Positions 56,268 to 63,748 of a stretch of DNA of 64,000 nt are shown here, piece after piece. The translations under genes were made by a program, and so were the position numbers. The DNA is from Prauserella shujinwangii (GTDB lineage Bacteria; Actinomycetota; Actinomycetes; Mycobacteriales; Pseudonocardiaceae): contig NZ_PVNH01000006.1 of NCBI RefSeq assembly GCF_003001955.1, positions 186,001 to 250,000 on the forward strand, given 5' to 3'. The notes beneath the pieces are model-generated. The model worked only from the letters and a program-made list of their open reading frames with translations, was not told the origin of the DNA and did no database searches. The first letter of the stretch is position 1; each line of letters starts with the position of its first letter.

Positions 56268-57302
56268 TCAGAAGGCGAGGATCAGCACGGCGGTGGCGTA
56301 GATCGCGGCGAGCATGACGCCGTCGAAGCCGAGCCGCCACCAGCCCCTGCGCTGCCGGACCAGCAGGCCGCCGAGCAGCACCGCCGTCATGAGCAGCGCG
56401 GAGCCGGTGAGGAAGAGCTGGTCGGGGGTGGCCGCGTGGAACAGCGAGCCCGCGCGGAAGACCACGTCGCCGAGCACGAGGTTGAGCGCGTCGAGGCTGT
56501 TGCCGCCGATGACGGCGGCCACGGCCAGCGTGAGCGCGCCCCGGCGGACCGCCGCGACGGCGGTGACGGTCTCGGGCAGCGCGTTGACCACGCCCATGAA
56601 GATAGCGCCGACGAGCCCCGCGGCCAGTCCCGTCTGGACGACGAGGCTCTCCGCCGCGCGGGCGATGGCCCAGCCCCCGACCACCACGACGGCCGCGATC
56701 AGGACGAACTCGCCCCACAGGGTGCGCGTGCGGCGCCTGCCGAGCGCGCCGTGGTCCTCCGGTTCGTCCGGTTTGGTCTCCCGCGTGCTGACCGCGCGCC
56801 ACATCGGCTCCCGCTGGTCGTGGATCAGCTTCAGCCCGCCCGCGTAGAGCGCGACCATGACGAACGAAGCCGGATGCACCCCGGCGACGGTCACGTCCGG
56901 GCTGAGCGACGCCAGCAGCCCGGTCCCGAGCAGGACGATGAGCAGGCATCCGAACAGCAGGTTGCGCACCGACGCCGCCGCGTGCTCCAGGTTGACCCGC
57001 CGGTGGGCGGCGTCCGCGGCGACGATCGCCAGCGTCTGTACCGCGATCCCGCCCACCGCGTTGCTGTAGGCGAGCTCCGGCTGTCCCTGGGCGGCGCTGA
57101 CCCCGGTCATCGTGATGCCGGACAACGACGACGCCACACCGAAGAACACCGCGCCGAAGAACGCCTCGCCCCAGCCCGTTCGGTCGGCGAGCGCGTCACC
57201 GAGACTCGCCAGCCGGATGCTGCAGACGACGGTCAGCGCGCCGGCCAGGACGAACACCGCGATGGCCCAGCCCAGCGGCCAGGGCTGGGTGAGCACGGAC
57301 AT
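56268..57302 (-). CDS. Cation:proton/calcium antiporter of the CaCA family
   Basis: The 344-residue membrane protein has about ten spans in two halves joined by a charged loop (REPMWRAVSTRETKPDEPED). The alpha-repeat motifs are VFFGVASSLSGITMTG (first half) and GVVNALPETVTAVAAVRRG plus GGNSLDALN (second half), the pattern of sodium/calcium exchanger-type proteins. ATG 57302. The open frame beyond it runs into the 21-bp array and is not coding. Confidence 0.88.
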   Translation of the reverse strand: MSVLTQPWPLGWAIAVFVLAGALTVVCSIRLASLGDALADRTGWGEAFFGAVFFGVASSLSGITMTGVSAAQGQPELAYSNAVGGIAVQTLAIVAADAAHRRVNLEHAAASVRNLLFGCLLIVLLGTGLLASLSPDVTVAGVHPASFVMVALYAGGLKLIHDQREPMWRAVSTRETKPDEPEDHGALGRRRTRTLWGEFVLIAAVVVVGGWAIARAAESLVVQTGLAAGLVGAIFMGVVNALPETVTAVAAVRRGALTLAVAAVIGGNSLDALNLVLGDVVFRAGSLFHAATPDQLFLTGSALLMTAVLLGGLLVRQRRGWWRLGFDGVMLAAIYATAVLILAF

Positions 57303-57340
57303 GGGTCCCGGATAGCCCGAACCGCCGGACACTACACACG

Positions 57341-57466
57341 CGCGCGTGTCCGCCACCGGCGCGCGCGTGTCCGCCATCGGCGCGCGCGTGTCCGCCATCG
57401 GCGCGCGCGTGTCCGCCATCGGCGCGCGCGTGTCCGCCATCGGCGCGCGCGTGTCCGCGTCGCACG
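57341..57466. repeat. 21-bp tandem array, six units
   Basis: The word CGCGCGTGTCCGC recurs at 57341, 57362, 57383, 57404, 57425 and 57446, each step 21 bp (unit CGCGCGTGTCCGCCATCGGCG). The first unit is preceded by the palindrome ACACGCGCGCGTGT. It lies between the antiporter start and the hrpA stop, both minus strand. Frames stay open because 21 is a multiple of three; none is a plausible protein. Confidence 0.9.
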
Positions 57467-57504
57467 GCGCAAACACGTGTCCGCAGCCGGCGGACACGGC
57501 GGCG

Positions 57505-61449: not shown

Positions 61450-62613
61450 TCACACCCGGCGCAGCACCGTGGAGTCGAGCTCAGTGACGGTGCGGTGCCC
61501 GGAAAGACCCATCGTCAGGTCGAAGTCGGCGAGCAGGCCGCGCAGCACGTGGCGCACCCCGTCCTCGCCGCCGTGCGCCAGCCCGTAGACGTAGGGCCTG
61601 CCGACCAGCACGGCACGCGCCCCCAGCGCGAGCGCCTTGAGCACGTCCGCGCCGGTGCGCACGCCGGAGTCGAACAGGACCGTGGCGCGCTCACCCACCG
61701 CGGTGGCGATCTCGGGCAGCATGTCCAGCGCGGCGACCGCGCCGTCCACCTGGCGGCCGCCGTGGTTGGAGACGATGATCCCGTCCATCCCGGCGTCCAC
61801 GGCGCGGCGGGCGTCGTCCACGTGCTGGATGCCCTTGAGCAGGATGGGGCCGTCCCAGTGCTCGCGCAGGAACGGCAGCGCGGACCAGTTCCGGTCCGTG
61901 CCGGTGACCATCGAGATCCAGCGCAGGATCGCCGTGGGCGCGTCCTCCTCCGGCGTCTTCTCCAGCAGCGACCGGAACGCCGGGTCGGTGAACGGCACGG
62001 CGAGGCCGTCGCCGTTCAGGAACGGCAGGTAGGCACCGTCGAGATCGGCGGGCCGCCAGCCGAGCGTCCACGTGTCGAGCGTGACGACGAGGGCCGTGTA
62101 GCCGGCCTCCTTCGCGCGGCGCAGGATGCTCCCGCACACGTCCGGGTCGTTCGGCCAGTACAGCTGGAACCAGCGGGGGCCGTCGCCGCTCGCCTCGGCG
62201 ACGGCCTCGATGCTGTGCGACGACGCCGTGGACAGCACCATCGGCAGGCGCAGGCCCGCCGCCGCGCGCGCGGTCGCCAGCTCCCCGTCGGGGTGCACGA
62301 TCGACTGCACGCCCACGGGCGCCAGCAGCACCGGCGCGGGCAGCTCCGTGCCGAGCACGGTCGTGGACAGGTCGCGTTCGGTGGCGTCGGTCAGCATCCG
62401 CGGCACGATCCGCCAGTGGTCGAACGCCGCGCGGTTGGCCCTGGCGGTGGCGCCGGAGCCCGCCGCGCCGGCCACGTACCAGAACGGCCCGGGTTCCAGC
62501 AGGTCCGCCGCGGACTCCTCGAGCCGGGTCGCGTCGGTGGTGAACGCGGGTGTGGTCCCGCCGTAGCCCTGCAGGTAGATCTCGTTCTGGTAGGAACCGA
62601 ACCGTTCGGTCAC
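61450..62613 (-). CDS. Alpha-hydroxy-acid oxidase, lactate 2-monooxygenase-like
   Basis: The 388-residue FMN enzyme has the catalytic His in SNHGGRQVDGA (near residue 290), the FMN phosphate region FDSGVRTGADVLKALALGA and GRPYVYGLAHGG. The N-terminal FGSYQNEIYLQGYGG segment and WFQLYWPND are specific to lactate 2-monooxygenase, which turns L-lactate into acetate and CO2. GTG 62613 has GGAGAGGGAGG upstream. The gene is divergent from the MerR/clamp fusion with an operator-like palindrome between them. Confidence 0.93.
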   Translation of the reverse strand: MTERFGSYQNEIYLQGYGGTTPAFTTDATRLEESAADLLEPGPFWYVAGAAGSGATARANRAAFDHWRIVPRMLTDATERDLSTTVLGTELPAPVLLAPVGVQSIVHPDGELATARAAAGLRLPMVLSTASSHSIEAVAEASGDGPRWFQLYWPNDPDVCGSILRRAKEAGYTALVVTLDTWTLGWRPADLDGAYLPFLNGDGLAVPFTDPAFRSLLEKTPEEDAPTAILRWISMVTGTDRNWSALPFLREHWDGPILLKGIQHVDDARRAVDAGMDGIIVSNHGGRQVDGAVAALDMLPEIATAVGERATVLFDSGVRTGADVLKALALGARAVLVGRPYVYGLAHGGEDGVRHVLRGLLADFDLTMGLSGHRTVTELDSTVLRRV

Positions 62614-62648
62614 GTGCACCTCCCTCTCCGTTCCCCCCACGCCTGTCC

Positions 62649-62662
62649 ATACCGGTCGGTAT
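62649..62662. promoter_or_regulatory. Operator-like inverted repeat in the divergent lactate-monooxygenase/MerR promoter
   Basis: ATACCGGTCGGTAT is an inverted repeat (ATACCG/CGGTAT with central GT), placed about midway between the two divergent starts. MerR proteins bind dyads in elongated spacers; the neighbouring MerR fusion is the candidate binder, but the assignment is inference. Confidence 0.45.
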
Positions 62663-62719
62663 CCTACGCACGCTCGCCGGGTTGACCTTCGAGTCGGTCG
62701 AACGCCCAGAATTCCTGCC

Positions 62720-63748
62720 ATGCCCGACGACCTGAGCATCGGCGAGTTCGCCCGCCGGACCGGCCTGACCCCGAGCGCGCTGCGCTTCTACGACGACTGC
62801 GGTGTGCTGCGGCCCGCGCGGACCGACGAGTCCAGCGGCTACCGCTTCTACGACCCCGGCCAGCAGCCCAGGGCGGAACGGCTGCGGGAGCTGCGCGCGG
62901 CCGGCCTGCCGCTGCCCGACGTCGCCGCGGTCCTCGACGGCTCCCCCGCCGAGGCCAGGCGGGTGCTGCGGGCGCACGCCCGCACGCTGCGGGAGCGGGC
63001 GGTCTCGGCGCAGGCGGCGCTCGCGGGGGTGCTGCGGGCGCTGCCCGACGCCGGGCACACCGAGGTGCGGCTCGGTGGACCGGAGCTGGCGAGTGCGGTG
63101 CGGCAGGTGGTGCCCTCGGCGGCGGCGACCGACGACGTCCCCGCGCTGGCGTGCGTGCTGCTGGAGCTCACCGGGGAGGAGGTGCGGCTCGTCGCCACCG
63201 ACCGGTACCGGCTCGCCGTGCGGGAGCTGCGGCCGCTCGGGGCCGAGGGCGACCCCCGGGAGCTGCTCGTCCCGGGCGCGGCCCTGGTGGAGGCCTCGGC
63301 GTGGGCCCGGGGACTGGCCGAGGTCACGATCGAGAGCGGCACGGCGGGGACCCGGCTGGCAGGCGGCGGAGCCGTGCGGGAACTGCCGGTGACCCGGGCG
63401 GAGTTCCCGGACTACCGGACGGTGCTGGCCGCGCTCGCGGCCCCCGCCCACCGGGTGCTGACCGGCAGGCGGGAGCTGCTGGCCGCGGTCGAGTCGGCCG
63501 GGGACCGGGTGGTTCTCGACGGCGGCGACGGAGTGCTGCGGGCCGGGGACCGCGCGCTGCCCGCCACGTGTTCCGGCCCGCCGCCGCGAATGGCGTTCGA
63601 CCCGGCGGTCCTCGGCCCGGCGCTGGCGGCGAGCGTGGGGCCGGACGTGCTGCTCGAGATCGCCGACGACGTCTCCCCGGTCGTGGTGCGCTCGGCCGAC
63701 CAGGGCGGGTTCACCACGCTCGTGATGCCCGTGGCCCTGCCCTCGTGA
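62720..63748 (+). CDS. MerR-family regulator fused to DNA polymerase III beta-clamp domains
   Basis: The protein has 342 residues. Residues 5-73 form a MerR winged helix (IGEFARRTGLTPSALRFYDD, GYRFYDPGQQ). Residues about 75-108 are a helical coiled-coil linker. Residues about 116-340 resemble sliding-clamp domains II and III: LELTGEEVRLVATDRYRLAV (149-168), EFPDYRTVL (228-236) and the C-terminal FTTLVMPVAL (331-340), like the DnaN ending YLLMPVRL. Clamp domain I is missing. ATG 62720. Divergent from the lactate monooxygenase, which it may regulate. The TGA lies in the 44-bp palindrome at 63744. Any role in replication is unknown. Confidence 0.88.
   Translation: MPDDLSIGEFARRTGLTPSALRFYDDCGVLRPARTDESSGYRFYDPGQQPRAERLRELRAAGLPLPDVAAVLDGSPAEARRVLRAHARTLRERAVSAQAALAGVLRALPDAGHTEVRLGGPELASAVRQVVPSAAATDDVPALACVLLELTGEEVRLVATDRYRLAVRELRPLGAEGDPRELLVPGAALVEASAWARGLAEVTIESGTAGTRLAGGGAVRELPVTRAEFPDYRTVLAALAAPAHRVLTGRRELLAAVESAGDRVVLDGGDGVLRAGDRALPATCSGPPPRMAFDPAVLGPALAASVGPDVLLEIADDVSPVVVRSADQGGFTTLVMPVALPS

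Follow-up and report, generated by a model that had tools for sequence, protein, structure and literature searches.

A MerR-type regulator fused to sliding-clamp domains II and III in actinobacteria: a candidate sensor of clamp-binding antibiotics

An open reading frame at positions 62720–63748 (+ strand, ATG start) of the window, i.e., the whole stretch of 64,000 nt of Prauserella shujinwangii DNA analyzed here, encodes a 342-residue protein that joins a MerR-type DNA-binding head to domains II and III of the DnaN sliding clamp. Computation established the architecture and fold of this protein, the conservation of the clamp's protein-binding pocket, the loss of ring and basic positions, the operator, and the set of genes that carry the operator. 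The combination of a MerR head with a clamp pocket, and of predicted targets that comprise exporters, dnaN and the gene itself, suits a sensor of antibiotics directed at the clamp. We therefore favor, with moderate confidence, a TipA-like MerR regulator whose captured clamp pocket senses clamp-binding antibiotics and which induces exporters, a TPR protein and, in one genus, dnaN.

Results

The N-terminal MerR winged helix-turn-helix (residues 6–73; 62735..62938, +) was recognized by Pfam MerR_1 (E 5.8e-14; 52.4 bits vs. a gathering score of 21.6) and is followed by a long linker helix in the AlphaFold2/DSSP assignment (residues 76–107; 62945..63040, +), presumably the MerR dimerization coiled coil. 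MerR proteins are dimers, and by family membership the fusion protein would be one as well. Clamp domain II (about residues 112–240; 63053..63439, +) was identified both by structure and by Pfam DNA_pol3_beta_2, which scored above its gathering threshold over residues 122–231 (E 5e-11), and a shortened domain III (about residues 241–341; 63440..63742, +; boundary approximate) was identified by structure. The NCBIfam DnaN model TIGR00663 also matched (E 1.3e-13), but the score of 50.7 bits lies below the full-length cut-off of 137.65. Sequence matches in the PDB placed the MerR regulator BrlR over residues 5–117 and DnaN over residues 122–328. The AlphaFold2 model, built on 41 family sequences, had a pLDDT of 94.8, and its best structural match was the clamp of M. 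tuberculosis (6fvo_B; Z 28.7, rmsd 1.9 Å, 225 residues). Residues 112–340 of the model aligned with residues 133–400 of that clamp, corresponding to domains II and III; by this match domain I is absent, and the protein does not have the three domains of DnaN. The TipAS effector domain (PF07739) was not among the Pfam matches up to E 1. An earlier note, made from the DNA letters alone, had proposed just such a fusion without clamp domain I and had quoted three motifs of the DnaN pattern. The Pfam matches, the PDB sequence matches and the AlphaFold2 superposition bear out the fusion, the structure match covers domains II and III alone, all three motifs are present, and the predicted structure has the DnaN fold on which that reading depended. 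A canonical dnaN lies at a separate place in the window's genome, G000 (G000:C5:298659-299783), and canonical dnaN was present in 40 of 41 genomes of the order and in 111/111 of one genus; the fusion protein is thus not the replication clamp.

Following removal of rows shorter than 290 aa and of identical rows, 120 distinct members remained, nearly all from Actinomycetota. Since they share one architecture, the fusion is neither a chance event nor a sequencing artefact. In a tree, the clamp halves of the 120 members formed a single clade (support 0.93) apart from 30 DnaN sequences, a pattern that would be consistent with an origin of the family by a single fusion. The distribution is patchy: the fusion gene was found in at least 46 of 200 genomes of the order (G013 included; the copy in G089 is cut at a contig end), and the sole other genome of the window's genus carries a copy of 66% identity. 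Scanning named genomes left 80 fusion loci, from Amycolatopsis, Saccharopolyspora, Streptomyces, Kribbella, Nocardia, Rhodococcus, Gordonia, Micromonospora and Blastococcus, among others; genes in the family loci were called with a purpose-written script, and some loci repeat a species (L063, L158). One fusion gene sits on a 7-kb contig of a Rhodobacteraceae MAG (L124; 70% GC) together with an operator of actinobacterial type, and this single non-actinobacterial label is probably a binning error. Nine plasmid records cover at least 80% of the query, of which seven say only "MerR family transcriptional regulator" and two are unannotated at that place. Literature searches in open-licence papers found no description of a regulator combining MerR with clamp, DnaN or griselimycin. 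The family is widespread in actinobacteria and apparently without a published description.

Two side observations concern other genes. A MerR paralogue in the window's own genome (L003; G000:C13:15890) was rejected as a second clamp fusion, as it joins a MerR head to a PP2C-type phosphatase; read from sequence, L039 and L059 resemble it, and MerR-PP2C proteins apparently occur in relatives as well. Within the window, short tandem repeats of ADTRAPM (RVSAIGA in another frame) lie at 57346–57500, at the start of a gene on the − strand (56268–57497).

Conservation of the pocket, whose residues were taken from the list given in PMC11139829, was compared between the 120 fusion members and 30 actinobacterial DnaN sequences; family positions are given below in E. 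coli numbering. In the window protein the pocket includes the motif TDRYRL (residues 160–165, E. coli 172–177; 63197..63214, +), P230 (E. coli P242; 63407..63409, +) and M336-P337 (E. coli M362-P363; 63725..63730, +). Subsite I is near-invariant across the family: L155 is kept in 113/120 members, T172, R176 and P242 in 118/120 each, and M362 and P363 in 120/120. Position 174 is R in 118/120 members, as it is in 30/30 actinobacterial DnaN, and position 246 of subsite I varies in the family, as in DnaN. The 18 pocket positions are better conserved than the rest of the 222 columns (p 9.6e-5), and the excess persists after regression on DnaN's own conservation (whole pocket, p 0.0013; subsite I, p 7.4e-5). 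Subsite II is looser, with N at N320 in 47/120, Y or F at Y323 in 54/120 and R at R365 in 68/120; the window protein has A at the equivalent of position 365. Classic clamp ligands may therefore not bind every member.

The positions that serve the clamp as a ring have fared differently from subsite I. Position 198 is R or K in 30/30 DnaN and R in only 6/120 fusion members, and most members have other residues at the basic positions 205, 268 and 269; we take these four positions to line the DNA channel, whose basic residues the family has thus mostly lost. Among DNA contacts named in published work, R24 belongs to the missing domain I, and Q149 is uninformative, since every one of the 30 reference DnaN has D there. 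At the ring interface, positions 272, 273 and 304 show gaps or substitutions in most of the 120 members, in a region where the alignment is less sure, and position 298, where it is likewise uncertain, is still D or E in 37/120. Because subsite I is kept and the ring-interface and basic positions are mostly lost, the clamp half is a clamp-derived pocket rather than a clamp ring. The earlier note had weighed both possibilities. Its suggestion of a ligand- or peptide-binding domain is supported by the near-invariant subsite I, the pocket residues being kept across homologues. Its incomplete or modified ring is not supported, given the missing domain I and the loss of most domain III ring-interface and basic positions; judged from these residues, ring-like assembly is unlikely.

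Upstream of the fusion gene, a MerR-type promoter/operator was predicted at 62682..62712 (+), with the sequence TTGACC-N19-CAGAAT and a spacer dyad TTCGA-N5-TCGAA. A promoter spacer of 19–20 bp that holds a dyad operator is a hallmark of the MerR family, and the predicted operator of the window has this form, with a spacer of 19 bp. It ends 7 nt before the ATG, with the −10 element near the start codon, and the fusion transcript likely has a leaderless start. TTGACYYTC was found upstream of the gene in 118/120 members and the exact 31-base operator pattern in 82/120; in an alignment of 119 own-gene sites, A27 and T31 occur in all. G013, a carrier that is not among the 120, has no operator site upstream of its fusion gene. 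The first pattern used had this operator as its only exact match in the window's 6.1-Mb genome, with 0 matches for the reversed-pattern control. The operator pattern was derived from self-sites and recovers just 82/120 of them; self-sites are for this reason not counted as evidence, and targets will escape the search.

The divergent gene for an FMN-dependent dehydrogenase (61450–62640) was rejected as a target because the operator reads the other way; it adjoins the fusion gene in L040, L041, L043 and L080, which are close relatives. Between this gene and the fusion operator lies a palindrome, ATACCGGTCGGTAT (62649–62662), that is partly conserved in the sister species (L038) and that we take to resemble a TetR-type operator.

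The operator search covered 46 carrier genomes (G200 included, G013 not) and returned 20 non-self exact sites, all of which were read. Eight lie at TPR genes, eight at MFS genes (six at exporters of the L197 type and two at a second MFS type) and four in the dnaA-dnaN region. The reversed-pattern control gave 0 in every genome of the operator searches, and the exact pattern was found in 0/60 genomes without the fusion gene, which the analyst had selected out of 154 non-carriers, although 30 of the 60 have a TPR homologue. Two of the eight TPR partner genes with an exact site are broken or partial; L196 (G184) and L217 (G037) are TPR partner genes with an operator that are apparently frameshifted or partial. 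When one mismatch was allowed, the window's genome had two sites, at the fusion gene itself and at an unlinked TPR gene. No exporter with an operator was found in this genome, and the predicted targets there are these two genes only. Three one-mismatch matches lie at or beside other MerR genes (L199, L200, L201), and the search gave six further matches with one mismatch. MFS genes also lie directly downstream of the fusion gene in L051, L094 (where the gene was called in two pieces), L122 and L043, and one gene on in L041, an arrangement that points towards an antibiotic sensor. A Bcr/CflA exporter follows at a gap of 111 nt in L043 and 54 nt in L041, and stands four genes on in the window; as a link to the function of the fusion gene, its proximity is suggestive only. 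Synteny with serS and a saccharopine-dehydrogenase-like gene, seen in about 15 loci, was set aside as reflecting a shared chromosome position and not function.

The TPR site in the window's genome is on another contig (G000:C4:91151-91181), 64 nt upstream of the gene and with one mismatch; its PWM score is 37.2, vs. a self-site median of 41.1. A TPR relative is the next downstream gene on the same strand in 40/112 loci (9/121 were left out, no fusion ORF having been picked), and in 16 of these it overlaps the fusion gene by 4 nt; three of the 40 neighbors (L091, L107, L127) are apparently mis-called. The two genes co-occur, a TPR gene being present in 25/46 carriers vs. 30/154 non-carriers (Fisher p 9e-6, ignoring phylogeny). 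Among the 25 genomes with both, the genes are adjacent in six, and nine have an exact or one-mismatch site at an unlinked TPR gene. In four more (G016, G120, G138, G175) a weaker variant site was found just upstream of the TPR gene (PWM 15.6–33.1). In the remaining six (G045, G047, G077, G181, G185, G197) the two genes are not adjacent and the TPR homologue has no site; additional TPR paralogues in G021, G036, G038, G060, G133 and G151 are also without an operator site. The site-less TPR genes are mostly of a more distant type, with 45–51% identity to the nearest reference, and could perhaps form a separate subfamily; the link of TPR with the fusion gene is not universal. The model of the TPR partner (pLDDT 93) has a generic TPR fold, and in a fold search its matches were to generic TPR proteins, without any at E<=0.001.

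In the genus of G189, the exact sites in the dnaA-dnaN region lie 658–684 bp upstream of dnaN, on its strand and just after dnaA. Among the matches listed, such a site occurs in at least 11 of 111 genomes and, besides these, in G185. This genus is Micromonospora-like, as indicated by synteny shared with the named Micromonospora loci L140, L154 and L155. Twenty further genomes, picked for having no exact site among the matches listed, were re-examined, and 19 of them carry a variant at the same place (PWM 12.7–43.3, vs. at most 3.1 in shuffles and at most 2.4 on the other strand); G015 has no dnaN site. Within this genus the dnaN site is widespread. Across 30 dnaN loci of the wider order, PWM scores did not rise above 12.2, and the best site lay inside a coding region; the dnaN target is therefore lineage-specific. 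That one genus has a predicted operator in its dnaA-dnaN region gives substance to the link between transcription control and clamp biology that the earlier note had envisaged. Separately, second DnaN-like genes score over the model cut-off in G012, G004, G014, G033 and G026, and these may be resistant copies of the clamp, comparable to GriR.

Discussion

Our proposed mechanism is that a MerR-type factor, presumably dimeric, uses a captured copy of clamp domains II and III as its effector domain. The peptide-binding pocket would have been retained as a ligand site, and ring closure and DNA holding would have been lost. A ligand in the pocket would change how the MerR head sits on promoters whose spacer is 19 bp, presumably activating them, and so could switch on the factor's own gene (autoregulation), the small TPR protein as its putative partner, MFS exporters and, in the Micromonospora-like genus, dnaN. 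The most likely ligand would be an antibiotic that occupies the clamp pocket, of the griselimycin or mycoplanecin type. The target mimic would then sense, and perhaps mop up, the drug, and the response would be efflux and more target. No tie between the fusion gene and a gene cluster for a clamp antibiotic came to light in the course of these analyses. Several published observations accord with parts of this scheme. Griselimycin and mycoplanecin are described as occupying the clamp pocket that is conserved in the fusion family (PMC10817943), and one report attributes griselimycin resistance to a mutation of the dnaN promoter that raises the clamp level (PMC6204406). Likewise, accounts of the MerR proteins TipA and AlbA have them bind drug through the C-terminal domain, and describe TipA as raising its own expression on drug binding (PMC7762955, PMC6078987).

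The main rival is that the pocket senses the cell's own clamp-binding motifs. Free motifs of polymerases and repair proteins would signal too little DnaN or stalled forks and, once bound, would raise dnaN and associated genes, making the protein a sensor of clamp homeostasis or replication stress. Conservation of the pocket fits peptide motifs as well as drugs, and an operator upstream of dnaN in the Micromonospora-like genus is what such a sensor could use. However, homeostasis hardly explains why exporters recur as targets (8/20 non-self exact sites, besides the abutting MFS genes). The 30 dnaN loci from outside that genus, which lack the site, and the patchy occurrence of the gene (at least 46/200 genomes of the order) also speak against this role, and we consider it doubtful. 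A clamp half that is a structural relic or scaffold, with regulation answering something bound elsewhere, would account for the shortened domain III and the variable subsite II; since subsite I ranks with the best-conserved stretches of the clamp half, to a degree that descent from DnaN does not explain, we regard this as improbable.

The patchy distribution would also suit a regulator that induces defense on sensing phage proteins directed against the host clamp, and phage inhibitors of the clamp, such as Gp168 of Twort, are on record (PMC11139829). The same source places the Gp168 site in the DNA channel and not in the pocket, though, and it is the channel positions that are degraded in the fusion family. 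Moreover, PADLOC matched the MerR head only (mad1) and nothing in the TPR protein, and the predicted targets include exporters, all of which makes a phage sensor very improbable. Least credible is a modified clamp that encircles DNA, in which two fused chains would form a ring carrying a DNA-binding head. MerR proteins are dimers, and two chains would bring four clamp domains, yet domain I is absent and most ring-interface and basic positions are lost; we give this arrangement almost no weight.

The antibiotic sensor that we favor resembles the TipA/AlbA class in its plan of MerR head, linker helix and large C-terminal effector domain, as well as in having an operator before its own gene and a small (predicted) regulon. 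It differs from that class in its effector domain, which is sliding-clamp II and III instead of TipAS or AlbAS, and in its extra predicted targets, namely a TPR protein, MFS exporters and, in one genus, dnaN. With DnaN (TIGR00663) it shares the fold of domains II and III and subsite I of the protein-binding pocket, whereas it is fused to MerR, has no domain I and has lost most ring-interface and basic channel positions. By sequence, the closest solved MerR heads are of the BrlR/BmrR type (BrlR), and regulators of this type respond to drug-type effectors. The effector domain of BmrR is described as GyrI-like and not as a clamp (PMC7762955). GriR and MypR, second DnaN copies in the griselimycin and mycoplanecin clusters, are presented as DnaN genes for self-resistance (PMC10817943). 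Like them, the fusion protein is a clamp copy apparently tied to clamp-directed antibiotics; unlike them, it is a partial clamp within a transcription factor. By its head and promoter the protein is classed with the MerR family, and neither with DnaN nor in the TipA class, though it may work in a TipA-like manner.

Taken further, and more tentatively, a copy of the clamp, an essential antibiotic target, may have become an inhibitor-sensing factor. Its answer would consist of exporters, a peptide-binding-type TPR partner and, in a single lineage, more target read from a promoter within the dnaA-dnaN (origin) region, so that the signal could also reach the initiation of replication. If true, this would be a target-mimic sensor, in which an attack on the replication clamp is read out by a piece of the clamp itself, and clamp-binding natural products would be frequent enough for selection to have favored a dedicated sensor across Actinomycetota. 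The promoter and protein would make a ready reporter for finding new inhibitors of the clamp, which is a tuberculosis drug target. In Micromonospora-like bacteria, it would also mean that expression of dnaN, and perhaps the activity of the origin, is tied to a ligand-gated regulator.
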